Shown: positions 16,147-50,621 of the stretch, piece after piece
Position numbering within the stretch: the stretch's first letter is position 1
Layout of the letters: each line of letters opens with the position of its first letter
DNA from: Podaxis mareebaensis
Taxonomy: Eukaryota > Basidiomycota > Agaricomycetes > Agaricales > Agaricaceae
Assembly: GCA_018524725.1 (NCBI GenBank)
Contig: JAEUWP010000592.1
Location: forward strand, 1-50,621
Length of the DNA: 50,621 nucleotides
Direction: 5' to 3'
Made by a program: the position numbers and the translations under genes
The notes under the pieces: model-generated
What the model was told of the DNA's origin: nothing
The model's database searches: none
The model's input: only the letters and a program-made list of their open reading frames with translations

Positions 16147-17927
16147 TGTGACAATGGCACCCTCATAGCCCAGGCCAAAGCCTGGGATGATAACCTGCAG
16201 GCATTTCAGAGTGCTTATGCAATCATTTTTAGACTGTTTGTCATATTCACCCTGGTCCTGGAACATTCTAAATCAGAGCTTTTTCACTTCTCCAGGAAGC
16301 CTGGAGATGACAACCCACTGATTGATCTGGGATTTGCCCTGTTTACCAGTGATACTCTTCTTAGACCCAAGCCACATTGGCAGTACCTGGGATTCTATTT
16401 CAATTGACAGCTCTCATTCAAGGAGCATGTCAGGTACTACTCTACCAAATCCCTATCAACTGTTAAGGTGATGGGGATGCTTAGTAATTCCTCATGTGGT
16501 CTGACCTCAATCAGAAGCACACACTTTATAGAGCATGTGTGGTGCCCATAGCCACCTATGGGTTCTGCCTCTGGTATTTCCTGGGAGCATACAACAAGCT
16601 ACTCCTCAGATCTCTCTCCAAGATGCAGCATAAAGCAGTGCTCTGGATTATCAGAGCTTTCAAAACATCTCCAACCAGGGGGAGCAAGGCCCTAGCAGGC
16701 CTAATCCCCTTTCATTTGCATCTCAAGAAGTTTGCTGAGAGGGCATGCTTCAGGCTTCACACCCTGTCCCCAAACCATGCCCTTAGGGCCATTTTGGGGA
16801 ATGACTACTCTATGGGAGTGCCTCTCCACCCCAGATCTATCACCCTCATGATGCCTAGGCAGTGTGAGAAGGCAGGTGGTCCCCTTATCTCCTCCAACAA
16901 AAAGTTGGATGAGATTAGTAAATGGTTCGAGCCAGATGCTGATGAGGCCCAGCCTGGATATCGCCTTCTCAACTGGTTTCAAGATTAGGTCGAGTTCTGA
17001 GCTGCCCTCCAGGATGAGGAAGACTGGGCAAGGTACATCCAACAGATGGAGACCATCTTGAGAGAGGCAGAACACTCCCCTGATACAGCCTACTGTAGAA
17101 CTGATGCAAGCCAGCCCACTCATGGCTTTTACCAGGCTGTCTCAGTGGCATTAGTATATCACTGTGGAAACCTAGTCAATGTGACCAGGAGAGCGGTAGG
17201 CTATGTTACTGCACTGGATGTGGAACTCTTTGCCATTCATCTGGCACTGGCACAGGCCATAGGTCTGGAAGGGGTCAACACAATTTTGATATGGACAGAC
17301 TCACTGGCTTCTGCCAAGAGATCTGTTGACCCATCTCCCATGTCAGGGCAATCACATGCCCTCACTGTGATCCATCTCCTCACACCATGGCTATCCCAAC
17401 TGGGGAGAAAGCTTCAATTCTGGGAGGTCCCTTCTGGGGACCCCTGGGCATCTGAAGAATGTTGTGAACTCATGCCTTGGCACTTGGAAGGCTGTCTTCC
17501 AGGAGCCGATACAAGGGTCACCAGTTCCTCAAGGTTCTGGACCCAGGCTCTAAACAGCCACTACAGCCCAGGTACTACTCTAGTGGCACCTGGTTTTCAC
17601 TTCTCAAGGGTGCCCCCCCCTTCCACAACAGCACACTTTGCAAGGTGTATTCTAGGACATGCCCCCATCAGGTTATACAAGATCCAGTTTTTCCCATAGG
17701 AGGAATTCTCCTATCCATACAGCTCAGCCATGGTCGAGACACATGACCACATCTTGCAGTACTGCAAGTGCTTCAAGGAACACATCAGGGGCCCTATCTA
17801 TTTAGGGGACTTAATCAAATTTCTGAAAACAAACACCTTGGCATTTGCTTTCAGGGCCAATCCCTCAGGTATTGGATAACAGCCAAACCTGGTCCAGTTA
17901 TAGACCCTGGGCCCAGCCCTCAAGTCC
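16147..17927 (+). mobile_element. LINE A, segment 2 (plus strand): RT thumb, RNase H, C-terminus
   Basis: This plus-strand LINE A copy begins within the RT catalytic motif (VDNGTLIAQAKAWDDN) and runs through LVLEHSKSEL, FKEHVRYYSTKSL, RACVVPIATYG, the RNase H residues (CRTDAS, DVELFAI, WTDSLAS) and the C-terminal zinc motif (about 17720-17770). A deletion near 17449 removes the end of RNase H, and stops occur at 16407-16409, 16986-16988 and 17697-17699. ORF2 ends at about 17877. Its 3' UTR is split by segment 3 and resumes at 20341. Confidence 0.8.
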
Positions 17928-20326
17928 TTTTTTTTTTTTTTTTTTATTCACCAATTTATATACTGGTGCTCGGTCGCAGTCTGGTTGCAGAATACATCAC
18001 TGTATCTACTCTATGTAAGATGATGCTAGGGATAAGCTCCCCATGGGCTAACATGTGCTTGCCTCCTAAAGGCTACCAAGTGCAGGAAGAGGACAGTGCA
18101 GAGGCACTGCCAGACTAGCTACTCCCCAGTCCAGTCCCCCTGCCCACCTCCAAAGGCCCCTGGAAGCCATTCCCCAAAGGGACCCACAACCAGAACAATG
18201 GGTCAATTCCCAGTTAACCACTACTAGCATAGAGCCAGTGGACACCAATAGAAGCAGTCAGATAGGTGTTAGTTTGCCATAAAGGACTCAAAGGCTAGGC
18301 CCAAGGTTCATAACTGGACCAGGTTTGGCAGTTATCCAATACTTGAGGGGTCAGCCCTGAAAGCAAATATGAAAGTGTTTGTTTTCAGGAATTTAATCAA
18401 GTCCCCCAAATAGATGGGGCCCTTGATGTGGTCCTTGAAGTGTGTGCAGCACTGCAAGATGTGATCACGCATCTCAACCATGGCCAAGCCGCATGGACAG
18501 GAAGCTTCCTCCTGTGGGAAGAACTGGATCTTGTAAGACCCAATGGGGGTGTGTCCTAGAACACACCTTGCAAAGTGTGCCAACACTGAAGGTGGGGTAC
18601 CTTTAAGGAGAGAGAACCATGTGCCACTGGAGTGGTACCTGGGCTGTAGCAGCTGTTTAGAGCCTGGGTCTAGAACTTCAAGGAACTGGTGACCCCAATA
18701 TTTCAGCTCCCAGAAGATAGCCTTCCAGGCATTGAGGCAGGAGTTTACAATGTTCTTCAGATGTTGATTCAGGGATTGAACCACCTGTGTCCCAATGGCT
18801 ACAGGCAGGAGGCTGGAGGCGTGCTCATGAGCCTCCCCATGAATTTCCCAGGAATCCCCAGATAGGACCTCCCAGAATTGAATTTTCTTTCCCAGTTGGG
18901 ATAACCATGGAGTGAGAAAACAAATCACAGTGAGGGTGTATTGCTGCCCTGATGTGGGAGAGGGATCAACAGCTCTCTTAGCTGATGCCAGGGAGTCTGT
19001 CTAAACCAGAATAGTATTGACACCTTCTAGGCCTACTGCCTGGGCAAGTGCCAATCGAATTGCAAGGAGTTCTGTATCTGGTGCAGTAATATCGCCTACC
19101 ACTCTCCTGGTTGCATTGACTAGGTTTCCATGGTGGTACACCAAGGCCGCTGAGACAGCTTGGTAGAGGCCATGAGTGGGCCAGCTTGCATCGGCTCCAC
19201 AGTAGGCTGTATCAGGGGAGTGTTCCACCTCTCTCAAGACGATCTCCATCTGTTGCAGATATCTCACCCAGTCTTCCTCATCCCAGAGGGCTGCTCTAAA
19301 CTTGACTTGTTCTTGGAACCAATTGAGCAAGTGACATCCGGGCCAGGCTTCATCAGCATCTGGCTCAAATCATTTGCTAATCTCATCCAACTTCTCATTG
19401 GAGGAGATAAGGGGGCCACCTGCCTTCTCACACTGTCTAGGAGTCATGAGGGCGATAGATCTAGGGTGGGGGGCCACTCCCATAGAGAATTCATTTCCCA
19501 GTAATGCCCTAAGGACATGATTGGGAGAGAGGGTGTGAAGTCTGAAGCTTGCCCTTTCAGTGAGCTTCTTGAGGTGTAAATGGAAAGGGATGAGGCCTGC
19601 CAGGGCCTCACTCCCTCCAGTTGGAGACATTCTGAAGGCACCAATGATCCAAAGTGTAGCTTTCCACTGCATCATTGAGAGAGATTTGAGGAGTAGCTTA
19701 TTGTGAGCTCCTAGAAAGTACTAAAGGTGGAACCCATAGGTGGCTATGGGCACCACACATACTCTATAGAGTGTACACTTCTGATCCAATGTCAACCTGT
19801 GCGAGGAGTTACCCAATATCCCCATCACCTTAACCATCAATAGGGATTTTGTGGAATAGTACCTGACATGCTCTTTGAATGAGAGCCATCGATCAAAGTA
19901 GAACCTCAGGTACCGCCAGTACAGTCTGGGTCTAAGTGGAGTGTCACCAGTGAATGGGGTAAACCTCAGATCTATTGGTGGATTGTCATCTCCATGTTTC
20001 TGTGAGAAGTGATAAAGCTCTGATTTGGAATGTTCCAAAACAAGAGCAAAGGCAACAAAAAGTCTAAAGATTATTGCATAGGTGCTTCTGAGTGCCTGCA
20101 GATTGTCATCCCAAGTCTTAGCCTGGGCTATGAGAGTGCTGTCATCCATGTATGAAAGGAGGGTGACTCTGAGGGGTGCTGCTTCCCTATCAAATAACTT
20201 CATCAGGGGAGCCAGATACAAAGCAGAAAGGATGGGGGACAAGGCAGATCCTTGTCCCACACTGATGTCTGCATCCATGGGATCTGAGGAGAACTGTCCC
20301 CAAAGATAGGAGGTAGCTCGCCTGAC
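17928..20326 (-). mobile_element. LINE A, segment 3: 5'-truncated insertion with 14-bp TSD
   Basis: A poly(T) (poly(A) on the element's strand) starts at about 17928, followed by the 3' UTR and ORF2 from the C-terminus back to the RT palm. The target duplication CCCTCAAGTCCTTT is at 17917-17930 and 20327-20340, so the insertion sits in the 3' UTR of segment 2. ORF2 (20326 to 18332) keeps one frame for 2 kb, with TAG stops at 19721-19723 and 19001-19003 where the other copies have Trp (TGG), and a third stop at 19370-19372. The RT motif reads YMDDST here. RNase H Asp/Glu positions (GADAS, DTELLAI) and the CPC...H...CC zinc motif are kept. Confidence 0.85.
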
Positions 20327-24210: not shown

Positions 24211-24428
24211 TGTTAGAACATGTGACCAGCTTTACCATATTTCTTTACTATATATAGTAATCCATCAATAGTTGGTCTGTGCACACTTTCCATATGTATA
24301 TATAGAGTAGCATGTCATCTCAATCAAAAAGGTCTCACCCTCACTTCAGTGTTAGTGTCAGTGTCAGTGTCAGTGTCTGAGCTCTATCTCTTCTCATCCT
24401 CCACTCTACTCTCTTTATTTTTCTGACA
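24211..24428 (+). repeat. 5' LTR of Gag-only element copy 1
   Basis: It starts TGTTAGAACATG and ends TTTTTCTGACA. It has a TATATATAG box near 24297 and a short AGTGTC array that varies between LTRs. Confidence 0.85.
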
Positions 24429-24440
24429 GGTTATGGGCCC
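24429..24440 (+). other. Primer-binding site, half-tRNA-iMet type
   Basis: GGTTATGGGCCC lies directly after the LTR. Its complement, GGGCCCATAACC, is the anticodon arm of initiator tRNA-Met, the site used by Drosophila copia with a cleaved half tRNA. The same 12-mer is at 45538 and on the minus strand at 50161-50172. Confidence 0.75.
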
Positions 24441-24565
24441 CAGGCTGTAAACTGTGCCACATCATCACTCCTTTGCTGCTATATCATCAGTTCTAGCCCC
24501 TATTCCCCTATTCATTACTATTCCTATCCTCCTATTATTCTCTTGTCATTTCCTCCTTGCCCATC

Positions 24566-25522
24566 ATGTCTATTCCCTCCATTGCCATCACTATCCACAA
24601 CTCAGTCCCCAGTCTCAATGCCCAGAACTGGTCCCAATGGTCCCTTGCTATGCAGATGTTTTTCCAGTCTGCTAATGCCTCCCACATCTTCTCTAATTCT
24701 CCACCCTTCTCTGATGATGCCAAATATCCTTCCTGGACCTCCCTAGACTCCCAACTCCTTCCTTTCATCTTTGCCAAGTTGGACCAGGACTACTGGTATC
24801 TTCTTGATAGTGTTACCTCTGCCAGGGCTCTCTGGGACAAGGTTAAAGCCTTGTTTGAGAAGTCTACCATTGGTCATAGAATGTTGGCTAGGCAAAAGTT
24901 TTATGGAGTGTCTCATGACATTTCCAAGCCTATTACCATATTCATCCAAGAGGTTATTGGTAGAGCTTCTCAGCTCAAGACTCTAGGTTGTACTGTGGAG
25001 GATACTGAGGTGATTGATGTCATCCTCATGAACCTGAATCCCTCTTTCCATCCCATTAGAACCACTATCCTTGCCCAGGATGACTATTCCATTTTAGAGA
25101 AGCTCAAGACCATCCTTTCCTCTGCCACCTCTGCTGATGGACTTGGCCCTGGTTCCTTCACATCCCAGTCTGCTTTTGCTGTTTCTAGTGGCAAGAGAAG
25201 ATATCCTCCCCACACCACTCACTCCAAGCCCTCTCACTCCTCTCATCACTCTGGTCACCCTATTTCTAGGGCTCCTTCTCCTGTGGATTCCAAAGGCTTT
25301 AGGTGGTGTAATCCTACCAATGAGGGTCACTGTCATAGGTGTGGAAGAGAGGGTCATATTGCTGCTAGGTGTGTTTACAACATGCCTCAAGAGGTTAAGG
25401 ATTGGGTCTTTGCCAATTCTAGACAGAATAGCCATTCTTCTCAACAGAGGGCTAATGCTGTTTATCACTTCCTATTCTCTCCCCACCACTCTCCTAGCAA
25501 CTCTCCTCCCCTTTCTCCTTAG
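24566..25522 (+). CDS. gag: Copia-type Gag (UBN2-like) with CCHC zinc knuckle
   Basis: The first in-frame ATG is at 24566 (MSIPSIAI), giving 318 residues. The N-terminal part has the copia Gag pattern (LNAQNWSQWSLAMQMFFQ, then LLDSVTSARALWDKVKALFE, then LGCTVEDTEVIDVILMNL). A Ser/His-rich linker leads to the knuckle CHRCGREGHIAARC (C-x2-C-x4-H-x4-C). It is uninterrupted and ends at TAG 25520-25522, while the copy at 45675 reads on through CAA for about 20 more codons, so this version is probably shortened by a new stop. Gag forms the particle that packages element RNA. No pol follows. Confidence 0.85.
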   Translation: MSIPSIAITIHNSVPSLNAQNWSQWSLAMQMFFQSANASHIFSNSPPFSDDAKYPSWTSLDSQLLPFIFAKLDQDYWYLLDSVTSARALWDKVKALFEKSTIGHRMLARQKFYGVSHDISKPITIFIQEVIGRASQLKTLGCTVEDTEVIDVILMNLNPSFHPIRTTILAQDDYSILEKLKTILSSATSADGLGPGSFTSQSAFAVSSGKRRYPPHTTHSKPSHSSHHSGHPISRAPSPVDSKGFRWCNPTNEGHCHRCGREGHIAARCVYNMPQEVKDWVFANSRQNSHSSQQRANAVYHFLFSPHHSPSNSPPLSP

Positions 25523-25725
25523 ATGGCTTCTGGTGCTTTTGTTGACTATTCTGCTATGCCTCCTTTGTTGATTTGATAGACTTTGACTTTGGACTCTCTT
25601 GATGGACACTTTATTACCTTTGCTTCTTTACTCCTTTTTAGTTCTTTTACACTTTTTAGATTAGGTGGGTGTATTGGACTTTGTTTTGCTAGTGTTACTT
25701 TTGGGTTCATCTAGTCAAGTGGGTG

Positions 25726-25943
25726 TATTAGAACATGTGACCAGCTTCACCATATTTCTTTACTATATATGGTAATCCATCAATAGTTGGTCTGTGCACA
25801 CTTTCCATATGTATATATAGAGTAGCATGTCATCTCAATCAAAAAGGTCTCACCCTCACTTCAGTGTCAGTGTCAGTGTTTGTGTCAGTGTCTGAGCTTT
25901 ATCTCTCCTCATCCTCCACTCTATTCTCTTTATTTTTCTGACA
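25726..25943 (+). repeat. 3' LTR of Gag-only element copy 1
   Basis: It starts TATTAGAACATG (TG decayed to TA) and ends TTTTTCTGACA. The adjoining AAGTGGGTG is the likely polypurine tract. Confidence 0.85.
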
Positions 25944-25948
25944 TGTAT

Positions 25949-28071
25949 TGGGGGAGTGTTCTGCCTCTCTCAAGACAATCTCCATCTGTTGCAGGTATCT
26001 CACCCAGTCTTTCTTATCCCAGGGGGCTGCTCTAAACTCGACTTGTTCTTGGAACCGATTGAGCAAACAATATCTGGGCCAGGCTTCATCAGTATCTGAC
26101 TCAAATCATTCACTGATCTCATCCAGCTTCTCATTGGAGGAGATAAGGAGGCCACCTGCCTTCTCACACTATCTAGGAGTCATGAGGGCAATAGATCTAG
26201 GGTGGGGGGCCACTCCCATAGAGAATTCATTTCCCAGTAATGCCCTAAAGGTATGATTGGGAGAGAGAGTGTGAAGTCTAAAGCTCACCCTTTCAGTGAG
26301 CTTCTTGAGATGTAGATGGAAAGGAATGAGGCCCACCAAGGCCTCACTCTCTCCAGTTGGAGATGTTCTAAAGGTGCCAATGATCCACAGTACAGCTTTC
26401 CACTACATCATTGAGAGAGATTTGAGGAGTAGCTTATTGTGAACTCCCAGAAAGTACCAAAGGCAGAACCTATAGGTGGCTATGGGCACCATGCATGCTC
26501 TATAGAGTGTATGCTTCTGATCCGATGTCAACCTGCATGAGGAATTACCTAACATCCCCATCACCTTAACCATTGATAGGGATTTGGTGGAGTAGTACCT
26601 GACGTACTCCTTGAATGAGAGCCACTGATCTAAATAGAACCCCAGGTACTGCTAATACAGTCTGGGTCTAAGTGGGGTGTCACTGGTGAATGGGGCAAAC
26701 CCCAGATCTATTGGTAGATTGTCATCTCCATGTTTCCATGAGAAGTGATAAAGCTCTGATTTGGAATGTTCCAAAACAAGAGCAAAGGCAACAAAAAGTC
26801 TGAAGATTATCATATAGGTGCTTCTGAGTGCCTGCAGGTTGTCTTCCCAAGCCTTAGCCTGGGCTATGAGAGTGCCATCATCTACATAAAAAAGGAGGGT
26901 GACTCTGAGGGGTGCTGCTTCCCTATCAAATAACTTCATCAGGGGAGCCAGATACAGAGCAGAGAGGACAGGGGACAAGGCAGATCCTTGTCCCATGCTG
27001 ACATCTGCGTCCATGGGATCCAAGGAGAACTGCCCCCAAAGATATGAGGTAGCTCGCCTGACTAGGTAAGAAGCAAAGAATTGCCCCACATTAGGAGGGA
27101 ATCCCTGCTTGTCTAATATGGCCATGAGCATGTCATGGTTCAGAGATGGAAAGAACTGAGTGATGTCGAATGTGACAACACTCGTCTTGAGACCCTTGGC
27201 CCAGCCACTTCAGATGACATGGGTCAGGAATAAACCAGTATCTTTGGTAGATCTCTGCCTAATCCCACTGAGTTGGTTCAGATGAAATACTCCATACTTG
27301 ATGGAGTCAAATTGGAGGCACTTAGATAGCATCTTCTCAATAAGTTTGCCCAAGGTGTTCAGAAGCACAATGGGTCTAAACAACTTGGGCGTGGAATACA
27401 AGGGCTTTCCTGGCTTGGGGATAATCACTGAGACAGACTCCTTGAAGTGCCTCAGCTAATGTCCTACTGAGAGGCAGGCATTGGCAAGGGCAAGGAACAC
27501 ATCATGACATTGCTCATTCATGATGATGTCCTTGAGGTAAGACTATGTGATGTGGTCTGGGCCTGGGACAGATACTAAGGAGCAGGCCAATAGTGCTTCA
27601 GCTAGCTTGAGGCATGAGAATGGGACCCACTCCTGAGAGGGCAATGAGGGGAGGAGATCCAAGATGTTAATCTCAGGTCTACGATCTGAGGCTGCATTGT
27701 AGGTGTCATGCAGAGCATTCCACAAGGCATCAAGGTTGTGGCAGGGGTAGCCATCATAGCTGATGGCCTCTACTGCTGGCATCTTATGCTGTTTGACCCA
27801 TTCCATGAGGTCCCACAGACACTTATTCATGGTGGCTATTTCCTTGATCTTCTTATCAAAGAATACCCATTTGGCAGCTTTGGTGACCCACCTGAACTCA
27901 GCCTAGTCTTCTTGGGACTCTGAGGCCCTGTGATGACTTAGTGAAGTTTGGCACTCCCTGTTCCACCAGGGTTTGGAGCATGACACAATGTTGACTTCTT
28001 TGGCACAGGAGTCCCATGCCCTAGAGAAGACCTCAGCTACAGCAGAAGCCATTTTCTTGATCTGGTCAGAG
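25949..28071 (-). mobile_element. LINE A, segment 4, 5' part (RNase H linker, RT, endonuclease tail)
   Basis: On the minus strand this continues ORF2 upstream of RNase H. It includes ALMTPRQCEKAGG, the RT palm (YVDDGTLIAQA and GQGSALSPVLSALYLAPLMK), the N-terminal RT block (VLLNTLGKLIEKML) and the linker CSKPWWNREC. It ends at 28071 with SRAWDSCAKEVNI upstream. Several frames are broken. The codon CAG at 27156-27158 (minus strand) is intact here but is TAG in segment 5 (37528-37530), which gives a direct mutated/unmutated pair. Segment 5's poly(T) begins at 28072. Confidence 0.82.
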
Positions 28072-31215: not shown

Positions 31216-34200
31216 ACATTCTATCTGCAATTCTGCTTCATTATTTAAGATTTCAATTTGTTCCTTTAATGTACAAAAGAATTGGTCTACAGTTGAATTC
31301 CTTCTTAATTCACCTTTACTTAAAGATGTTCACATCTTATGCCTGCAAGAACCTGCCTTCAGGTACATCTGTAATATCCTGTCCACATCAGCCTCTGAAG
31401 GAGATCCAATGGAAGGACCGCCTATCCACAGAGATTGGCTACTACTCCATGACCAATCCATTTCCAAACCTCACATTATCACATATGTACGCAATTCTAT
31501 CTAGTCCCTCAACCCTGTTATTCACCCAAACATTATTTCGTCCCCTGACTTTCAAATGTTTTCACTTTCTATTCCTAGCAAACAGTATTTTCTTAACTGT
31601 TACTTTGAAACAAACGACTCTTCTTCCATAGATTACCTAGAATCATGTATTCATTCCTTCCCTAATAATGTTTGTTATGCAGGAGGAGATTTCAACACGA
31701 GGTCTTCCAAATGGGATCACCATGCTCCACATCACTCGGCATGAGCTGACTTGTTGTGTGACATCATGAACACAATTGGTCTTACAAGATCCACTCCGAT
31801 CCAATACTCCCCTACTCATTTCCCTGATGATCTCAACAAATTGGCAATGGTGATTGATCTCATGTTTGCAATCTCCCCACCTAACCTCCCTGCCCCTACT
31901 CATTCATACCAACATGATTGGAGATCTCGATCCAATCATGTCCCCCTCTTCACACATGTCCCTTTGTCGTCAACTGTCACCCCCATTACTATCAAACATA
32001 CCATACCAAGAGACTCCGAAGAAGAAGCTCTCTTTCTGTACAACTGCTCCTTGTGCATTAAGGCACTCCCCCCCAATTTTGAATCTTCTGATGATGTCAA
32101 TAATTATGCGACTTCCATCTTCAATATTGTTTCTGAGGAATGGAATGTGAACACTGTAGAAGTCAAGATTTGTCACCGCTCAAAGCCTTGGTAGAACAAC
32201 CAATACTCTGATGCCCTATACACCTTTAATGCCCACCACACCAAACGTAACTGGAGCAATTTTAGATGCACCACCAAAAATGCAAAGAGAGCTTTCTTTG
32301 ACAATAAGATTTTGGAGATCTCAAGGGAGAAACAACGTCCTTGGGATTTAATGTCATGGGTGAAGAAACGAAATCTTCCCCCATCCCAATCCATCCTTCA
32401 TAAAGGACTACCATGTGATGAACTGGAAAGCTTATGGAAAGTGCTTGACGAGACATACAATGCGGTGTCCAATAAACCTGTTGATCTTAGTACAGCCAAC
32501 TTTGCTCCTAAAAGGGAAGAGCGATCATGGCCTCCTTTCTCACCCAGGGAATTGACAGATGCCCTCTCACCCTGCGCTAATTCTTCTGCCCCAGGCCCAG
32601 ATCACCTTACATAGGCCCACATCAAATTCTTCATGTCTGATGATGTCATCAAATCGAACTTCACATCCTTTGCCTCTGTGTGTATTCAATTCCACACATG
32701 GCTGGAATATTTCAAAACGTCCACTTCGGTTATCATTCCTAAACCGAACAAACCTCACTACTCAACGCCTAAAATGTTTTGGCCCATCGTCCTCCTCAAC
32801 ACCCTAGGCAAACTTATTGAAAAGATGATATCCAATCGTCTTCAATTCAAATCTACCCAGTTCAATCTCGTTCATCCCCTTCAATTTGGGGGCATCATCC
32901 ACTGCTCAACTGAAGATGCAGGTGTTTTCATCACCCATATGGTCTGTACTGGATGGAAAAAGAACCTGAAAATGAGCATCCTCGCTTTTGACATTGCTCA
33001 ATTCTTTCCTTCTATCAACCACTCTCTTTTAATCGAGGTCCTTAAAAGACATGGCTTTAATTTGTCTATAGTCTCCTTTTTTTCAGACTATTTAATTAAT
33101 TGTTTTACTAAGTACTCTTGGAATAACAACACCTCTCCTCCCTTCCCAGCTTCTGTAGGCATAGGTCAAGGTTCAGCTCTTTCCCCCATCTTAACCACTC
33201 TTTATCTTTCACCTTTCATTCATAAATTCTCCAACAATGCTCGGTGTAAACTACTCTCTTTTGTAGACGATGGTCTCATTATCGTACAATCTGACTCCTT
33301 CCACACAAACTGTAATTTACTTGCTTCTGTATATCTTAGTTGCAAACAATTGCTAACCGCCATGGGCCTCGCTCTTGAACATGACAAGACTGAAGCCTTT
33401 CATTTTTCCAACCGCCCTTGGGCAGAACCCGACCCCCACATCATTGTTAATCATCCCACAGATAGTTGGCTTACCTTCATTCCCAAGCGTCACCTTAGAT
33501 ACTTGGGCTTCTTTTTCGACTGGGCACTCTCATTCAAAGAACATGTCCGCTACTACTCCACAAAGGTGCTCTCCACAGTCAAATGTATGCACCTCCTCAG
33601 TAACTCCATCTGAGGTCTATCCCCATCACATAAGTGCCTCCTTTATAGGTCTTGTGTCGTACCCATAGCCATATATGGCTTCCATTTATGGTTTAATCAC
33701 AATGGCTGATACAAAGGCCTCATCAAACAGCTACAACAAATGCAATGGTCTGCAGCCTTATGGATCACCGGTGCATTTCGCACAACCCCCATGGGTGGAG
33801 TTGAGGCCATTGCAGGCCTCATCCCCATCCAACTTCACCTCTTCAAGCTCACTAAGCGATGCTCTCTCCACTTCCAAACCCTCCCTCCTTCCCATCCTTT
33901 AAAAATCCTTACACGTGACGTTGACCCCCTTGATGTGCGCTCTACTAAAAATTGGTCCACAGTGTTAGACTTTGTATCTGATGCCCAATTAGTCTCAGAC
34001 CGGTTCAACCGTCTCCACCCTAGTGCCAAACCTGGTCAGCGTCTAGTCGACCATTTTGACTCTCAAATCCATTTTCATCAATGCCCTACCCCTGTTGATA
34101 ATAATGTAAAAGCTCAATACATACAATCTCTCAATCTAGCTAGGGATTCTTCTTTTTCCTCTCCTGTTTCATTAGTAGTCTCTTCTGATGGTTCGGTTCC

Positions 34201-35460: not shown

Positions 35461-38368
35461 AGCCCTAAAAGCGAATGCTGAAGTGTTCATTTTCAGGAAT
35501 TTGATCAAGTCCCCTAAGTAGATAGGGCCCTTGATGTGGTCCCTGAAGTATGTGCAGTACTGCAAGATGTGATCACACATCTTGACCATAGCCAAGCTGC
35601 ATGGACAGGAGGCTTCCTCTTGTGGGAAGAACTGGATCTTGTATGACCTGATGGGAGCATGTCCTAGAACACACCTTGCAAAGCATGCTGACATAGAAGG
35701 TGGGGCACCTTTGAGAAGAGAGAACCATGTACCACTGGAGTGGTACCTGGGCTGAAGAGGCCATTTAAAGCCTGGGTCCAGAACTTCAAGAAACTGGTGA
35801 CCCTTGTATTTCAGCTCCTGGAAGATGGCCTTCCAGGCATCAAGGCAGAAGTTTACAACATTCTTCAGATGTTGGTTGAGTGATCTCACAACCTGCATCC
35901 CAATGGCTACAGGCAGGAGGGTGGAGGCATGTTCATGTGCCACTCCATGAATCTCCCAAGGATCCCCAGAGGGGACCTCCCAGAATTGAAGTTTCTTCCC
36001 TGGCTGGGACAGCCATGGGGTGAGAAGACGAATGACAGCCAGGGCATGTGGTTGCCCTGAAGTAGGAGAGGGGTCAACAGATCTCTTAGCCAATGCCAAG
36101 GAATCTGTCCATACCAGAATAGTGTTGACACCCTCCAGGCCCACTGCCTGGGCAAGTGCTAGTTGGATGGTGAATAGTTCTACATCAGGTGCAGTGACAT
36201 TGCCTACCGCTCTCCTGGTTGCACTGACTAGGTTTCCACAGTAGTACACCAGGACTGCTGAGACTGCCTGGTAGAAGCCATGAGTAGGCTGACTTGCATC
36301 AGTTCCACAATAGGCTGTGTCAGGGGAGTGTTCTGCCTCTCACAAGACAAGCTCCATCTGTTGAAGATATCTTGCCTGGTCTTCTTTATCCTGGGGGGCT
36401 GCTCTAAACTCAACTTGGTCGTGAAACCAATTGAGAAGGCAATATCCAGGCCAGGCTTCATCAGCATCTGGCTTGAATCATTTGCTAATTTCATCCAGTT
36501 TTTCATTGGAGGAGATAAGGGGACCACTAGCCTTCTCACACTGTCTGGGAGTCATGAGGGCAATAGACCTGGGATGGGGGGCCACTCCCATAGAGTAATC
36601 ACTACCAAATAAGGCCCTGAGGGCGTGATTGGGGAAGAGGATATGAAGTCTAAAGCTCACCCTCTCAGTGAGCTTCTTGAGATATAAGTAAAAGGGGATG
36701 AGGCCTGCTAAGGCCTTACTTCCTCTGGTTGGAGACATTCTAAAAGTGCCAATAATCCAAAGTGCAGCTTTCCACTGCATTGTTGAGAGAGATTTGAGGA
36801 GTAGCTTATTGCATGCTCCTAGAAAATACCAAAGGTGAAACCCATAGGTGGCTATGGGCACCATGCATGCTCTATAGAGTGTGTGCTTCTGATCAGATGT
36901 CAGTCCACGTGAGGAGTTCCCTAACATCCCTATTGCCTTAACTATCAACAGGGACTTGGTGGAGTAATACCTGACATACTCCTTGAACAAGAGCCATCAA
37001 TCAAAATAGAATCCCAAATATTGCCAATATGGTTTGGGTCTAAGTGGAGTATCACCAGTGAATGGGGCAAACCCTAGATCTATTGGCAGATTATCATCTC
37101 CATGTTTCCATGAGAAGTGATAAAGCTCTGATTTGGAATGTTCCAAAACAAGAGTGAAGGTAACAAAGAGTCTAAAGATTATTGCATATGCACTTCTAAG
37201 CACTCACAGGTTGTTGTCCCAGGCCTTAGCCTGGGCTATGAGAGTGTTGTCATCCACATATGAAAGGAGGGTGACTCTGAGTAGTGCTACCTCCCTGTCA
37301 AATAGTTTCATCAGGGGAGCAAGGTACAAGGCAGAGAGGATGGGGGATAAAGCAAAGCCTTGTCCCACGCTGACATCTGCATCCATGGGATCCAAGGAAA
37401 ACTGCCCCCAAAGATAGGAGGTGGCTTGCCTAACAAGGTAAGAAGCAAAGAACCTCCCTACATTTGGGGGAAATCCCTGCTTGTCTAGGATGGCCATGAG
37501 CATGTCATGGTTCAAAGATGGAAAGAACTAGGCAATGTTGAATGTAACAACACTCGTCTTGAGACCCTTAGCCCAGCCACTTTGAACAACATGGGTCAGG
37601 AATAACCCAGCATCTTCAGTAGATCTCTGTCTAATGCTACTGAGCTGGTTCAGATGAAATACTCCATATTTGATGGAGTCGAACTGAAGACGCTTGGATA
37701 GCATCTTCTCAATAAGTTTACCTAATGTGTTCAGAAGCACAATGGGTCTGAACAACTTGGGCATGGAGTATGAAGGCTTTCCCAGTTTGGGGATAATCAC
37801 TGAGATGGACTCCTTGAAATGCCTTGGCCAGTGTCCTACTGAGAGGCAGGCATTGGCCAAGGCAAGAAACATGTTGCAACATATTTCATTCATGACAATG
37901 TCCTTAAGGTAAGACCATGTGACATGGTCTGGGCCTGGGGTGGATGCAGAGGAGTACACCGATAGTGCTTTGGCTAGCTCGAGGCATGAAAATGGGACCC
38001 ACTCCTGTGAGGGCAGGGAGGGGAGGGGATCTAGGACATTAATCTCAGGTCTATGATCCAAGGCTGTATTGTAGGTACCATGCAGAGCATTCCACAAGGC
38101 ATCAAGGTCATGGCAGGGGCAGTCATCATAACTGATAGCCTCCACTGCTGGCATTTTGTGCTGCTTGACCCATTCCATGAGGTCCCACAGCTGCTTGTTT
38201 GTGGTGGCTATTTCCTTGATGGTCTCATCAAAGAACACCTGTTTGGCAGCCTTGGTGGCACACCTGAATTCAGCCCAGTCCTCCTGGGACCTGGAGGTCC
38301 TGTGACAAGTGAGTGATGCTTGACACTCTCCATTCCACCAAGGTCTGGAGCATGACACAATATTGACC
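35461..38368 (-). pseudogene. LINE A segment 5 ORF2: RT, RNase H, zinc tail, four stops, no indels
   Basis: From 38358 down to the LINE B junction one frame is kept for 2.9 kb. It holds CSRPWWNGEC, VIIPKLGKPSYSMPK, VLLNTLGKLIEKMLSK, GQGFALSPILSALYLAP, YVDDNTLIAQA, LVLEHSKSELYHFSWK, RACMVPIATYGFHLW, RNase H (CGTDASQPTHGF, DVELFTIQLALA, VWTDSLALAKR and EIHGVAHEHAS) and CPCSLAMVKMCDHILQYC. Only four stops interrupt it: TAG 37530-37528 (CAG in segment 4), TGA 37206-37204, TGA 36999-36997 (CGA in segment 3) and TGA 36480-36478 (TGG in segment 2). A few point changes therefore silenced it. It is cut upstream at 38368 by the poly(T) of segment 6. Confidence 0.87.
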
Positions 38369-40046
38369 TTTTTTTTTTTTTTTTTTTTTTTTTTCCTTCA
38401 ACAATTTATATACTAGTGCTTGATCGCAGTCCAGTTGCAGAATACATCACTGTATCTACTCTATGTAAGATGATGCTAGGGATAAGCTCCCTGTGGGCTG
38501 ACATGTACTCACCTCCCAAAGGCTACCAAGCACAGGAAGAGGACAGCACTGAGGTGCTGCCAGACTAGCTACTCCCCTGTCCAGTCCCCCTGTCCACCTC
38601 CAAAGGCCCCTGGAAGCTGATCCCTAGAGGGACCCACAACCAGAACAATGGGTTAATTCCCAGTTAACCACTATTAGCATAGAGCCAATGGACACCAATA
38701 GAGACAGTTGGATAGGCATTAATTTGCTGTAAAGGACTCAAGGGCTAGGCCCAGGGTCCATAACTGGACTGGGTTTGGCAGTTATCTAATACCTGAGGGA
38801 TCGGCCTGAAAGCAAATGCCAAGGTGTTTGTTTTCAGGAATTTGATCAAGTCCCCTAAATAGATAGGGCCCTTGATGTGGTCCTTGAAGCATGTATAGTA
38901 CTGTAAGATGTGATCACATGTCTCAACCATAGCTGAGCTGCATAGGCAGGAGGCTTCCTCCTGTGGAAAGAACCGGATCTTGTAAGACCTGATGGGGGCA
39001 TGTCCTAGAACACACCATGCAAAGCGTGCCAACACAGAAGGTGGGGCCCCTTTGAGAAGCAAGAACCAAGTGCCACTGGAGTGATACCTGGGTTGAAGCA
39101 GTCATTTAGAGCCTGGGTCCAGGACCTCAAGGAACTGGTGTCCCTGATATTTTGGCTCCTGGAAGATAGCCTTCCAGGCATCAATGCAGGAGCTCACAAT
39201 GTTCTTCAAATGCTGATTGAGCAATCAAATGACCTGTGCCCCAATAGCCACAGGTGGGAGAGTGGAGGCATGCTCATGTGCCACCCTGTGAATTTCCCAG
39301 GGATCCCCAGAAGGGACCTCCCAAAACTGAAGTTTCTTCTCTGGTTGAGAGAGCCATGGGGTAAGAAGTCATATCACAGCCAGGGCATGTGGTTGCCCTG
39401 ATGTGGGAGAGGGATTAACAAATCTCTTAGTGGATGCCAAGGAATCTGTCCATACCAGAATAGTATTGACACCTTCCAGGCCCACTGCCCAAGCCAGTAC
39501 CAATCAAATGGCAAAGAGTTCAGCATCAGGTGCAGTAACATCGCCTACCACTCTTCTAGTCACATTGACTAGGTTTCCGCAGTGATATACCAAGGCTGCT
39601 GAGACAGCCTGGTAGAAGCCATGGGTAGGCCGGCTCGTGTTGGTTCCACAATAGGCTGTGCCAGGGGAGTGTTCTGCCTCTCTTAAGATGATCTCCATCT
39701 GTTGTATATACCTCGCCTAGTCTTCTTTATCCCGGGGGGCAGCTTGGAACTTGATTTGGTCTTGGAACTGATTGAGAAGACAATATCTGGGCCAGGCTTC
39801 ATCAGCATCCAGCTCAAATTGTTCACTGATCTCATCTAACTTCTCATTGGAAGAGATAAGGGGACCATCTGCCTTCTCACGCTGTTTGGGAGTTATGAGG
39901 GCAATAGATCTGGGGTGGGGGGCCACTCCCATGGAGTATTCATTTCCCAATAAGGCCCTAAGGGCATGATTGGGAGAGAGTGTATGGAGTCTGAACCTTG
40001 CTTTCTTGGTAAGCTTCTTGAGGTGTAGATGGAAGGGAATGAGTCC
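38369..40046 (-). mobile_element. LINE A, segment 6: 3' UTR to RT thumb
   Basis: About 26 T start at 38369, followed by the 3' UTR, the zinc motif (CLCSSAMVETCDHILQYY), RNase H (CGTNTSRPTHGF and DAELFAI) and the PHPRSIALITPKQ region. It ends at 40046 (GGGAATGAGTCC), where the next poly(T) begins. The stop at 39717-39719 and further stops within RNase H break the frame. Confidence 0.8.
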
Positions 40047-42680: not shown

Positions 42681-44200
42681 CACTTCTTGACCTGATACCA
42701 CTACCTTCCTAATTGGAAACATACTCAGCTCATTGTTGCATCCATTCTACAAGACTCTAGGTCACCCGATCTGATATCAGGTGTGGTATCCATTGACTTC
42801 AATGTCATACCAATCTGAATCCTCAAGAGGTCAAGGTGGATCATGCCAGGGAGGACCTGGCCACCACTTTGCCTCAGCAGATGCCTCTGTAGCATTGCTG
42901 AGCTCACAACTCAGATCTATTGATTGGGGGGAAGAAACAACCCCCCCACACCCAGTGCTGCCATCAGGGAGCACTATGCATCCCTGACACTATCCCAGGA
43001 CTGTCAACTTTCTGTCAAGTGGACCCCAAGAGCCACTCATTCCCATTCTACCCCTGGCAACTCTCACTAGGCTTCTCCTACCCCAGGCCCATCATCTCAG
43101 ATAGATGTGGGTGACCCCCTGGCCACTGTCCCCCTAGAGTTGGTTGGCACCCTTTTGGGTATCAGGGAGGATGCAGAGGTGATAGCCATATCCCTTGAGA
43201 CAGCACAAGGCTGGCTGCTTGAGCATTCCAACTCTCCCATCTTGGAGAGCCAACTCCATGAAGTAGCAAGGACAGCTGCCACACTAGTAGCTGCTCTCTG
43301 AGATGCTGGATGGTTCCCTGTCCAGATACACCCTGATTCATCAGTTACCCTGGCAGATGGGCTAGTTGAGATTATAGGGCCTCACCTGCTGAGGCAGCCC
43401 TCCCCCCTCCCCCCATCCTCTCCCCTTCCAATGGAGTCAGACACACCACCAGCTGTGCCCCCAGCTTGTCCCATCAATACCCATCTGTTAGCTCTCAATG
43501 GAGGGAACCAATCCCACTTGGGACCATACCCCCTTCTGGTGCCACTGAAGTGAGGTACCCCTAAGGGCCCCCTGCCTCCTGTCAACATGACCACTTGACC
43601 TGGCAACTATGCCCAGGTCACAATCACCCCTCCTAGCCTTCAACAAGCCAAGACAATGAACCTGGTGAACCTCACCAAGGTGTTTCCATCTCTACCACCC
43701 CAGAAGCTTGTCCAGCTCGAAAAGCAGGTGACTAGAGGCAAACCTACCAAAGCTGCTTTTAAGTGGCCTGCCATGACCACGTCAGGTCCCACCAGATGCC
43801 AGGTCATTATTACAGTGGACGTTGCCACTCTGACAGTGACACCCAATGACTTATTGGCTGCTATCAACACAGCTCTCATTGCCACAAAGTCCAAACTTTG
43901 TGGTGAATCTATTAGACTAGGCTTCAGTGGCTTCATTGTAGCCACCAATGTCATTGCTACAGAGGACAACCTCAAAGTCATCTGCCATTGCCTCCCATTG
44001 GTCTTCAGCCCCACTTCCTGAGGGGACATCGACCTTCCTCACTCCAAATCCTATCTCAAGATTATTGGAGTTCCATTCATCCATCAGGGGCACAACAACA
44101 CCAAGCCCAATGACATCATTATTGCCATGAGGTCTTCACCTTATGCAGACTTGTTTACGATCACTAACAATGTCTAGGTCAGGCACAACTCTCCAGGGCA
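42681..44200 (+). mobile_element. LINE A, segment 10: 5' UTR and ORF1 (plus strand)
   Basis: It begins CACTTCTTGACC, the same 5' end as segment 1, with a 121-bp 5' UTR and ORF1 from the ATG at 42802 (MSYQSES). The frame shifts near 42980 and is broken by stops at 43302, 43551, 43597, 44019 and 44174. The middle is well kept (TMNLVNLTKVFPSLPPQKL, TRCQVIITVDVATLTVTPND, SKLCGESIRLGFSGFIVATN, SKSYLKIIGVPFIHQGH). The knuckle region is absent because the sequence switches to element N near 44200. Confidence 0.78.
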
Positions 44201-45325: not shown

Positions 45326-45537
45326 TGTTAGAACATGTGACCAGCTTCATCATATTCCTTTACTATATATGGTAATCCATCAATAGTTGGTCTGTGCACA
45401 CTTCCCATATGTATATATAGAGTAGCATGTCATCTCAATTAATAAGGTTTTACCCTCACTTCAGTGTCAGTGTCAGTGTTAGTGTCTGAGCTTTCTCTCT
45501 CCTCATCCTCCACTCTATTTTCTTTATTTTTCTGACA
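45326..45537 (+). repeat. 5' LTR of Gag-only element copy 2
   Basis: TGTTAGAACATG to TTTTTCTGACA, with a TATATATAG box near 45412 and a shorter AGTGTC array than copy 1. Confidence 0.88.
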
Positions 45538-45549
45538 GGTTATGGGCCC
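45538..45549 (+). other. Primer-binding site, half-tRNA-iMet type
   Basis: GGTTATGGGCCC directly after the LTR, identical to the site at 24429. Confidence 0.75.
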
Positions 45550-45674
45550 TGGGCTGTAAACTGTGCCATATCATTACTCCTTTGCTGCTATATCATCAGT
45601 TCTAGCCCCTATTCCCCTATTTATCACTATTCCTGTCCTCCTATTATTCTCCTATCATTTCCTCCTTGCCCATC

Positions 45675-46685
45675 ATGTCTATTCCCTCCATTGCCATCAC
45701 TATCCACAACTCAGTCCCCAGTCTCAATGCCCAGAACTGGTCCCAATGGTCCCTTGCTATGCAGATGTTTTTCCAGTCTGCTAATACCTCCCACATCTTC
45801 TCTAATTCTCCACCCTTCTCTGATGATGCCAAATATCCTTCCTGGACCTCCTTGGACTCCCAACTCCTCCCTTTCATCTTTGCCAAGTTGGACCAGGACT
45901 ACTGGTATCTTCTTGATGGTGTTACCTCTGCCAGGGCTCTCTGGGACAAGGTTAAAGCCTTGTTTGAGAAGTCTACTATTGGTCATAGAATGTTGGCTAG
46001 GCAAAAGTTCTATAGAATGTCCCATGACATTTCCAAGCCTATCACCATATTCATCCAAGAGGTTATTGGTGGAGTTTCTCAGCTCAAGACTCTAGGTTGT
46101 ACTGTGGAGGATACTGAGGTGATTGATGTCATCCTCATGAACCTGGACCCCTCTTTCCATCCCATTAGAACCACTATCCTTGTCCAGGATGACTACCCCA
46201 CTCTAGAGAAGCTCAAGACCATCCTTTCCTCTGCCACCTCTGCTGATGGACTTGGCCCTGGTTCCTTCACTTCCCAGTCTACTTTTGCTGCTTCTAGTGG
46301 CAAGAGAAGATATCCTCCCCATACCACTCACTTCAAGCCCTCTCACTCCTCTCATCACTCTGGTCACCCTATTTCTAGGGCTCCTTCTCCTGTGGATTCC
46401 AAAGGCTTTAGGTGGTGTAATCCTACCAATGAGGGTCACTGTCATAGGTGTGGAAGAGAGAGTCATATTGCTGCTAGGTGTGTTTACAACATGCATCAAG
46501 AGGTTAAGGATTGGGTTTTTGCCAATTCTAGACAGAATAGCCATTCTTCTCAACAAAGGGCTAATGCTGTTTATCACTTCCTATCCTCTCCCCATCACTC
46601 TCCTAGCAACTCTCCTTCCCTTTCTCCTCAAATGGCTTCTGGTGCTTTTGTTGACTATTCTGCTATACCTCCTTTGTTGATTTGA
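45675..46685 (+). CDS. gag: Copia-type Gag (UBN2-like), full-length copy
   Basis: An intact 336-residue frame runs from the ATG at 45675 to TGA at 46683-46685. It has the same domain plan as the copy at 24566, with the C-terminal extension QMASGAFVDYSAIPPLLI retained. The knuckle reads CHRCGRESHIAARC, so the Gly before the His is Ser here while the Cys/His ligands are kept. It may still make protein. An overlapping frame upstream (from 45563) begins with GTG rather than ATG and is not a gene in my view. Confidence 0.87.
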   Translation: MSIPSIAITIHNSVPSLNAQNWSQWSLAMQMFFQSANTSHIFSNSPPFSDDAKYPSWTSLDSQLLPFIFAKLDQDYWYLLDGVTSARALWDKVKALFEKSTIGHRMLARQKFYRMSHDISKPITIFIQEVIGGVSQLKTLGCTVEDTEVIDVILMNLDPSFHPIRTTILVQDDYPTLEKLKTILSSATSADGLGPGSFTSQSTFAASSGKRRYPPHTTHFKPSHSSHHSGHPISRAPSPVDSKGFRWCNPTNEGHCHRCGRESHIAARCVYNMHQEVKDWVFANSRQNSHSSQQRANAVYHFLSSPHHSPSNSPSLSPQMASGAFVDYSAIPPLLI

Positions 46686-46834
46686 TAGACTTTGACTTTG
46701 GACTCTCTTGATGGACACTTTATTACCTTTGCTTCTTCACTCTTTTTTAGTTCTTTTATACTTTTTAAATTAGGTGGGTGTATTGGACTTTGTTTTGCTA
46801 GTGTTACTCTTGGATTTATCTGGTCAGGTGGGTG

Positions 46835-47046
46835 TGTTAGAACATGTGACCAGCTTCATCATATTCCTTTACTATATATGGTAATCCATCAATAGTTGGT
46901 CTGTGCACACTTTCCATATGTATATATAGAGTAGCATGTCATCTCAATTAATAAGGTCTTACCCTCACTTCAGTGTCAGTGTCAGTGTTAGTGTCTGAGC
47001 TTTCTCTCTCTTCATCCTCCACTCTATTTTCTTTATTTTTCTGACA
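46835..47046 (+). repeat. 3' LTR of Gag-only element copy 2
   Basis: It is identical to the 5' LTR except at three transitions. The purine tract GGTGGGTG precedes it. Confidence 0.88.
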
Positions 47047-49027: not shown

Positions 49028-49685
49028 ATTACGATACCTAGTTGGCCTGAGCACCACTGGCCAAGCGCTTTGTCAGAGCGCCTACACTTGTCCTGATGTG
49101 GCTCTCCCACAGGACATTTTATATTCCCCCCTATTGCTGCAGCCACTGGCTGCACCGTCCCTCTCCCCACAAGGGGAAGTGAATATTATTGGGTATGCTC
49201 TTTATGAGAGCTGCCAAGTGCATTCCTGTGAGGCTTCCGATCAGGGTGTATGCCCCTGAGCACCGCCCACTACATGTGGGACCTGTTCATTTTCTGTACT
49301 CCTGTGCACTGATGGCTGATCTGCAGTCTGAGGTGATATCAGAGGGTTCACCCTCCCCCCTGTGGAGGTAATTATCTCGCCTCCCTTCAGTGCCCAGTTA
49401 ACCTCTGTCAAGACGGGAGTTTACAGTGAATTAACATTGACGTGCCAAAGCATAGGGACTGGGAGCACACTGTTGGGGGGTCCTAGAGACACAAAGCTGA
49501 TGTCAACTCAGCATTCATCCTAGTCATGGTAGCCCTTGGGAGGCATGACTGTGTTGGTATGTAACAGCCTAGTGTACAATTTAGACATCCTGTATGTAGT
49601 GATTCTATGTGCAGGCGCAGACTGTGATCAAGCCCCGTGTAATAAATTGTTGAATAAAAAAAACAAAAAAAATACCAAGACTACT

Positions 49686-49843
49686 GAGACAGCCTAGTAG
49701 AAGCCATGGGTGGGCTGGCTCACATCAGTTTCACAATAGGCTGTGCCAGGGGAGTGTTCTGCCTCTCTCAAGATGATCTCCATCTGTTGTACATACCTTG
49801 CCCAGTCTTCTTCATCCCGGGGGGCAGCTCAGAACTCAATTTG
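49686..49843 (-). mobile_element. LINE A, segment 11, part 3
   Basis: Minus-strand ORF2 between RNase H and the RT thumb (on the minus strand QQMEIILREAEHSPG and upstream codons). It is interrupted by the miniature LTR element at 49844. Confidence 0.8.
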
Positions 49844-49860
49844 TATTAAGACAGAAAAGT

Positions 49861-49932
49861 GACCATACCAGAGATTGAACCTGGCACCACCTGTGATTGC
49901 AACAGGAGCTCTAACCACTGAGCTATATGGCC
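49861..49932 (-). other. tRNA-like sequence in 3' LTR of the miniature element
   Basis: The 72 nt fold as 7-bp acceptor (GGCCATA/TATGGTC, one G-U), D arm GCTC/GAGC, anticodon stem CCTGT/ACAGG with loop TGCAATC, 5-nt variable loop, and T stem CCAGG/TCTGG with loop TTCAATC. The A box is TAGCTCAGTGG and the B box GGTTCAATC. TTTT follows two bases after the end. The loop lacks U33, so decoding is unlikely. Confidence 0.8.
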
Positions 49933-50160
49933 TGGTACAAGTGGGAATTGGTAGGTGTTATATATACCATACCAAGGATGGGACTTGACTTTCCTCTGTT
50001 GGCACACTGTAGGATCTGGTGCACTATGCAGTTAGGGATAAGTTCAGAGGACCCTTGCCTGTCAGGTGACTTGACCTATCATCTCCTAACATACCCCCCT
50101 GATGTGACATGTTGCCCACTTTTCTATCATGGCAGCTTACCAAGTGAGTGGCAATGCTCA

Positions 50161-50172
50161 GGGCCCATAACC
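50161..50172 (-). other. Primer-binding site of the miniature element
   Basis: GGTTATGGGCCC on the minus strand, abutting the 5' LTR. It is identical to the sites of the two Gag-only elements. Confidence 0.75.
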
Positions 50173-50189
50173 TATTAAGACAGAAAAGT

Positions 50190-50261
50190 GACCATACTAG
50201 GGATTGAACCTGGGACCACCTGTGATTACAACAGGAGCTCTAACCACTGAGCTATATGGCC
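50190..50261 (-). other. tRNA-like sequence in 5' LTR of the miniature element
   Basis: The cloverleaf is the same as in the other LTR, with loop TGTAATC and one C-A mismatch in the T stem. A TATATATAA motif (50295-50287) lies 26-34 bases upstream of its first base, and TTTT (50187-50184) just downstream, giving a complete type-2 RNA polymerase III unit. Confidence 0.8.
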
Positions 50262-50425
50262 TGGTACAAATGGGAATTGGTAGGTGTTATATATACCATA
50301 CCAAGGATGGGACTTAACTTTCCTCTGCTGGCACACTGTAGGATCTGATGCACTGTGCAGTTGGGGATAAGTTCAGAGGACCCTTGCCTGTCAGGTGACT
50401 TGACCTATCATCTCCTAACAATTTG

Positions 50426-50507: not shown

Positions 50508-50621
50508 TTTTTTTTTTTTTTTTGAGTCAACAATTTATTATGTAGGGCTCAATCACAGTCCATGCCTGCACATAGAATCACTACATACAGGATGTCTAAA
50601 ATGTACACTAGGCTGTTACAC
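50508..50621 (-). mobile_element. Element N, 3' end of a copy leaving the window
   Basis: Poly(T) 50508-50523, then CAACAATTTATTATGTAGGG and the 3' UTR as in 49571-49655 (inverse), up to the window edge. Confidence 0.8.

Follow-up and report, generated by a model that had tools for sequence, protein, structure and literature searches.

A non-coding LTR element of Podaxis mareebaensis with tRNA-like segments in both LTRs and most of the traits of Helenus-type TRIMs

A stretch of 50,621 nucleotides from contig JAEUWP010000592.1 of Podaxis mareebaensis (the window, analysed here at its full length) contains a 577-bp LTR element on its minus strand (Table 1). The two LTRs, 248 bp each, are 96% identical and differ at 10 of 248 positions, nine of the differences being transitions. 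Both begin with TGTTAGG and finish with CTTAATA, giving TG...TA ends rather than the usual TG...CA. They enclose an interior of 81 bp, in which a primer-binding site (PBS) adjoins the 5' LTR and a polypurine tract (PPT), AGGGGGG, lies two bases before the 3' LTR; the whole is flanked on both sides by a perfect 5-bp target-site duplication (TSD), ATTTG. None of the 22 ORFs of at least 150 aa listed for the window overlaps the element, and a genome search gave no second match to the interior. Repeat and flank analysis thus bears out the original prediction of a TRIM with these LTRs, interior and TSD, and its placement of the PBS and purine tract was also correct.

The flanks were joined with one copy of the TSD kept. 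The joined sequence aligned without gaps over 246 of 246 nt, at 89% identity, to window positions 39588–39833, a paralogous empty site with a single copy of the target. The junction is also spanned without gaps at 36248–36467 and 16936–17146, and with gaps at 19140–19370 and 25951–26120. Since these paralogous sites run across the junction, the target was one member of a set of repeats, and insertion of the element duplicated 5 bp of it. The structure of the element is well beyond chance. Inverted copies of a repeat (88%) flank the element at 49560–49672 and 50508–50620, with an A-rich end that is perhaps the 3' end of a LINE and with pieces matching eight further places in the window. By eye, numerous short ORFs resembling reverse transcriptase, in both orientations, lie between 13300 and 38358; among those scanned, the ORF at 32633–33613 matched RVT_1 (92.8 bits).

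Table 1. Features of the TRIM and of a Copia-type element in the window (coordinates are window positions)
Feature	Position	Strand	Basis
Whole Helenus-type TRIM (very probable assignment), 577 bp	49844..50420	-	repeats, TSD, paralogous empty site
5' LTR, 248 bp	50173..50420	-	direct repeat
3' LTR, 248 bp, 10 differences from 5' LTR	49844..50091	-	direct repeat
Interior, 81 bp, non-coding	50092..50172	-	between LTRs
PBS GGTTATGGGCCC, start of interior	50161..50172	-	exact complement of iMet tRNA nt 28–39
Polypurine tract AGGGGGG, 2 bases before 3' LTR	50094..50100	-	read from interior sequence
TSD ATTTG, left	49839..49843	.	flank
TSD ATTTG, right	50421..50425	.	flank
tRNA-like segment, 5' LTR; A box 50244–50254, B box 50200–50210	50189..50261	-	ARAGORN, Rfam 51.1 bits
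tRNA-like segment, 3' LTR	49860..49932	-	ARAGORN, Rfam 46.9 bits
TATATATAA, TATA-like, −34 to −30 of tRNA-like start, 5' LTR	50287..50295	-	sequence
TATATATAA, 3' LTR	49958..49966	-	sequence
TTTT one base after tRNA-like segment, 5' LTR; possible weak Pol III terminator	50184..50187	-	sequence
TTTT, 3' LTR	49855..49858	-	sequence
Gag-only Copia-type element (L048), 212-bp LTRs, TSD ATGAC (by eye), no pol	45326..47046	+	PF14223 60.2 bits

In each LTR, ARAGORN reported a tRNA on the minus strand, which is the sense strand of the element, and both segments scored above the Rfam gathering score of 29 for RF00005, with E-values of 4e-8 (5' LTR) and 5.5e-7 (3' LTR). The segment occupies LTR positions 160–232, and in the 5' LTR its A box (TAGCTCAGTGG) and B box (GGTTCAATCCC) both fit the Pol III consensus. 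ARAGORN, Rfam and the consensus boxes therefore agree with the predicted sense-orientation cloverleaf with A and B boxes in both LTRs; the segment predicted at 72 nt is present, although it is 73 nt long according to Rfam and 74 nt according to ARAGORN.

TRIMs with a tRNA-like sequence in the LTR were named Helenus by Kojima in 2024 and form a TRIMp3 group (PMC10886601). The original prediction had known of no fungal TRIM with a tRNA-like gene in its LTR and had proposed an undescribed system; since Helenus, fungal families included, is described in that paper, the claim falls. Among the literature matches listed, judged by titles and the starts of abstracts, this was the only account of tRNA-bearing TRIMs that was found.

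A tRNA called by both ARAGORN and Rfam might be a working one that is spread by the element, and PMC10886601, in the passages drawn on here, leaves this possibility for a few fungal Helenus families. ARAGORN labelled the segment Leu, but the anticodon it read differs between the two LTRs (TAA and CAA). Position 33 of the anticodon loop, usually U in tRNAs, is a G in the segment (by eye), and the segment has a short variable region, unlike the long-armed Leu-type tRNAs of the same genome; the Leu label is not credible for these two reasons. On free folding, z-scores were only −1.9 and −1.6, a near-cloverleaf being obtained from the 3' LTR copy and none from the 5' LTR copy, and a working tRNA-Leu was rejected on account of this weak fold and the missing long variable arm. 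We regard a working tRNA as extremely improbable; from its sequence, the segment looks like a tRNA-derived promoter. The G at position 33 and the lack of a Leu-type variable arm point in the same direction as the published view that in most Helenus families the tRNA-like part is unlikely to be a working tRNA, where disagreement over the isotype in tRNAscan-SE is cited (PMC10886601).

Compared with 64 host tRNA predictions, the segment is closest to Ile-AAT, with scores of 27 for the 5' LTR copy and 21 for the 3' LTR copy against next-best scores of 19 and 17.5, respectively.

The LTR was then used to search the genome of the same fungus (36.95 Mb in 429 contigs). This search, which the original prediction had proposed, returned a solo LTR of 249 bp on contig C390, with the 5-bp TSD ATCCC on both sides, and a copy on contig C19, which starts inside the LTR so that the LTR is cut by the contig start. 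Together with the element in the window, the LTR was thus found inserted at no fewer than three loci, counts being lower bounds because the genome search skips common words. Since contig C19 begins inside an LTR, assembly breaks may hide further copies. The LTR also ends in TA at C390 and, judged by similarity since the opposite end is missing, at C19. All four LTRs found (the window pair, C390 and C19) contain the tRNA-like part, although the A box of the C390 solo LTR carries two changes; the fear that other copies might lack the segment was not borne out, both further insertions having kept it. Consistent with this, the first 30 nt of the segment, with up to three mismatches, matched four places in the genome, namely these four LTRs, and a reversed control matched none. 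A tRNA family search of the genome, in which 63 of 1322 candidates were scored, did not have the window element itself in its list.

These copies bear on whether the segment is a local accident, that is, a tRNA-headed SINE or a tRNA gene that entered one LTR a single time and was then carried over to its partner, without any wider family. Such an insertion is the origin proposed for Helenus (PMC10886601), and the likeness to the host Ile-AAT tRNA would fit it; the tRNA-like part of the C19 copy likewise scored 27 against a smaller set of 30 host tRNA loci, where the best of 200 shuffles reached 7.5. However, the same segment occurs in two further insertions elsewhere, indicating that it spread as part of the LTR, and no SINE with this tRNA-like head was found in the genome (E up to 10, within the limits of the search tool). 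A single local insertion is therefore largely refuted within this genome and we consider it highly improbable. An exact-pattern scan for the tRNA-like part gave no match in viral and none in prokaryote collections; neither collection is fungal, so the result carries little weight.

Seven of the eight Helenus traits that were compared were found in the element, the assignment being by traits, with published families compared by description. As in Helenus, a tRNA-derived sequence is present, here in both LTRs. Box A (TRGCY, YGG) and box B (GGTTC) are kept in Helenus (PMC10886601) and correspond to the two boxes of the 5' LTR, the changed box A of the solo LTR apart. Helenus elements measure 311–1263 bp and have no coding capacity (PMC10886601), a range that includes the non-coding 577 bp found here with their 81-bp interior. 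In fungi they have a 5-bp TSD and a PBS mostly to the anticodon loop, with iMet dominant (PMC10886601); here, ATTTG and the ATCCC of the solo LTR are 5 bp long, and the PBS is a 12-nt exact complement of the iMet anticodon arm. A PPT before the 3' LTR is likewise shared, as is the occurrence of a solo LTR with TSD. Fungal Helenus elements are tied to Copia, and Copia elements with a similar PBS region are described (PMC10886601); this trait was found for the PBS only, since among ten translated loci with this PBS three had a Copia gag, one a weak one and one a Ty3-type domain (see below). Fungal families include those of the Agaricomycetes Agaricus bisporus and Coprinopsis cinerea (PMC10886601), and P. 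mareebaensis belongs to the same family, Agaricaceae, as Agaricus bisporus. In keeping with this, the nad4 protein encoded on the mitochondrial-looking contig C429 shares 95% identity with that of Leucoagaricus naucinus, another member of the Agaricaceae, and reaches 97% with further proteins among the 120 of 1421 matches listed. We are confident that the element is a Helenus-type TRIM.

Other TRIMs resemble the element in part. Cassandra, a plant TRIM, also has a Pol III small-RNA promoter in its LTRs, but that promoter is derived from 5S rRNA (PMC10853983), whereas the sequence in this fungal element is derived from a tRNA. Ajax, a nemertean TRIM, shares a small-RNA promoter in the LTR and a 5-bp TSD, but its LTR is again derived from 5S rRNA (PMC10886601). 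PbTRIM of the red harvester ant is a further non-plant TRIM with LTRs, PBS and PPT; unlike the element described here, it has a 4-bp TSD and a PBS to tRNA-Leu, and no tRNA-like LTR segment is mentioned in the passages of PMC3532108 that describe it.

Over all of its 12 nt, the PBS is perfectly complementary to nt 28–39 of the initiator-Met (iMet) tRNA of the same genome, which is encoded by two genes of identical sequence with a stem reading GGGCCC. Yeast iMet as a query gave no match in the genome. One genome match to an iMet search pattern was rejected as an iMet gene since ARAGORN found no tRNA there, and none of 21 matches to a T-arm pattern was an iMet, as judged by eye. Within the 25-nt PBS region, the longest match to iMet was 12 nt, compared with at most 10 nt in 1000 shuffles, whereas the longest match to the element's own tRNA-like part was 6 nt. 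The suggestion that the tRNA fold serves as primer is thus not supported, and self-priming by the tRNA-like RNA was rejected. An iMet half-tRNA ending at nt 39 is the primer type of Drosophila copia. In Helenus, the tRNA-like part was likewise found not to be complementary to the PBS, and half-tRNA priming with a PBS at the anticodon region of the tRNA is described for Copia and Ty5 (PMC10886601); these are autonomous coding elements, whereas the TRIM only borrows the primer.

A 20-nt pattern reaching outward from the PBS, with up to three mismatches, matched 27 places in the genome, the element included, and its reversed control matched two. The exact 12-nt PBS is present at 25 of the 27 places. 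The two bases before the PBS, with CA read as an LTR end, are CA at 24 places, TA at two (the element and L057) and GA at one. The element is the only place of the 27 with a tRNA within 400 nt upstream of the PBS. At L057 (contig C229, PBS at 43421), the upstream sequence ends in TA like that of the TRIM.

Ten of the 27 loci were translated, and 12 of the 14 resulting open stretches were scanned with Pfam. A Copia gag above the Pfam cut-off was found at three of the ten (L048, L044 and L045), the latter two also having Pol_BBD, and a weak Copia gag below the cut-off at L042. Locus L043 (contig C171, PBS at 15290) has the exact 12-nt iMet PBS after CA; there, a stretch starting about 700 nt downstream matched DUF4939 (40.4 bits, above cut-off) and Ty3_capsid (21.7 bits, below), so that the locus is either a Ty3-type element with an iMet PBS or one carrying a neighbour's domain. 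No Pfam family was matched by the translated stretches of L047, L051 and L060, and open stretches of 100 codons were lacking at L041 and L046. Given the Ty3-type domain at L043, the three loci without a family and the two without an open stretch, it is not established that only Copia elements use this PBS.

One of the loci with a Copia gag lies in the window itself (Table 1). Its PBS (45538–45549) is the same as that of the TRIM, its LTRs are 98.6% identical and its gag ORF (45666–46685, 339 aa) is intact, making it a member of the candidate helper class that itself has no pol. A second gag-only Copia-type element, at 24211–25943, has the same iMet PBS and LTRs of about 216–218 bp that are 96.3% identical. 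The window gag is 51–53% identical to two Leucocoprinus proteins and 89% identical to one further protein. Of 20 relatives found for the stand-alone gag, 14 were aligned; they are of about the same length and 34–92% identical, and in 13 of the 14 the tail is alike, ending in L-I or L-L. A gag-only family of long standing is suggested by this, the search having been filtered by length so that relatives fused to pol are hidden. Between the LTR of the TRIM and that of the gag-only Copia element in the window, only short weak matches were found (best E 0.22). A helper sharing the interior was rejected, the interior having no other match in its own genome. A putative Copia-type helper is nevertheless supported by the PBS and the length of the TSD, not by wider homology.

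Upstream of the tRNA-like segment, each LTR carries the TATA-like TATATATAA, and the TTTT downstream of the segment is the only run of four or more T residues in either LTR. TATA boxes at about −30 of tRNA genes are known from fission yeast. For comparison, we used 58 ARAGORN predictions, representing 48 non-mitochondrial loci, from the genome of the same fungus. TATAW starts between −35 and −26 in 8 of the 58, compared with 1 of 58 in the 10-nt bin on either side (Fisher p 0.03, for a bin that was chosen by the analyst; other bins gave 8 at −30 to −21 and 2 at −40 to −31), and a TATA box precedes both iMet genes (L111 and L112). A TATA box thus precedes some tRNA genes of this fungus, an arrangement that the LTR shares. 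Within 40 nt of the same predictions, a run of five or more T residues was present in 47, a run of four at most in 10 and no run of four in one, so that a T4 need not be leaky in this fungus.

The same TATA-like sequence would also suit an element of Helenus-like anatomy transcribed by Pol II, with a start about 30 nt downstream and the tRNA-like part a captured relic in R/U5 that has no role as a promoter. The position of the TATA box would put such a start near the 5' end of the tRNA-like part, which is unprotected from mutation after insertion and has two A-box changes in the C390 solo LTR. By contrast, both internal boxes match the Pol III consensus in the 5' LTR, the tRNA-like part is retained in all four LTRs found and boxes A and B are conserved across Helenus families (PMC10886601). 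We consider Pol II transcription possible but the less likely of the two, and a Pol III promoter in use is fairly likely on the strength of the sequence features.

With somewhat better than even confidence, we favour a Helenus-type TRIM with a tRNA-derived Pol III promoter that is moved in trans by an iMet-primed Copia element. TFIIIC and TFIIIB would be recruited by the A and B boxes together with the TATA-like box, and Pol III would start shortly before the tRNA-like segment of the 5' LTR, read frequently through the weak TTTT of that LTR, cross the interior and stop at the TTTT of the 3' LTR. The terminal repeat (R) of the resulting RNA would then be the tRNA-like segment. A Copia element that is primed with the 5' half of the iMet tRNA may provide packaging and copying of this RNA in trans, and insertion by the Copia integrase would generate the 5-bp TSD. 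The tRNA-like part would act as a promoter, as neither a working tRNA nor a primer. A transcript running from TTTT to TTTT is a doubtful detail, and only tentatively do we propose that the LTR is a whole Pol III unit of fungal style, whose leaky, shared TTTT may set both ends of the RNA and make the tRNA-like gene the R region; no such account was found in the passages of the Helenus paper drawn on here (PMC10886601).

Several observations stand against Pol III transcription. The A box of the C390 solo LTR has two changes, the TTTT of the 5' LTR should halt some Pol III transcripts early and the TATA box could equally serve Pol II, a TATA being present in only 8 of the 58 host predictions. Four of the ten LTR differences fall in the 73-nt tRNA-like part, where its length predicts about three, and so give no sign that the fold was under selection once the element had inserted. 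For the model as a whole, the LTR ends in TA instead of CA, the interior matches no candidate helper and a locus with a Ty3-type domain shares the PBS.

If the TTTT-to-TTTT arrangement were true, the element would be a retrotransposon whose RNA arises by reading through from one tRNA-like gene into a second. The locus adds a clean Helenus case to the record of the Agaricaceae, together with the iMet gene of its own genome, a paralogous empty site and Copia-type elements with the same PBS. Automated tRNA annotation of fungal genomes will count LTRs of this kind, as has been shown for rusts (PMC10886601), and the question of whether Helenus is transcribed by Pol III becomes testable in a mushroom.
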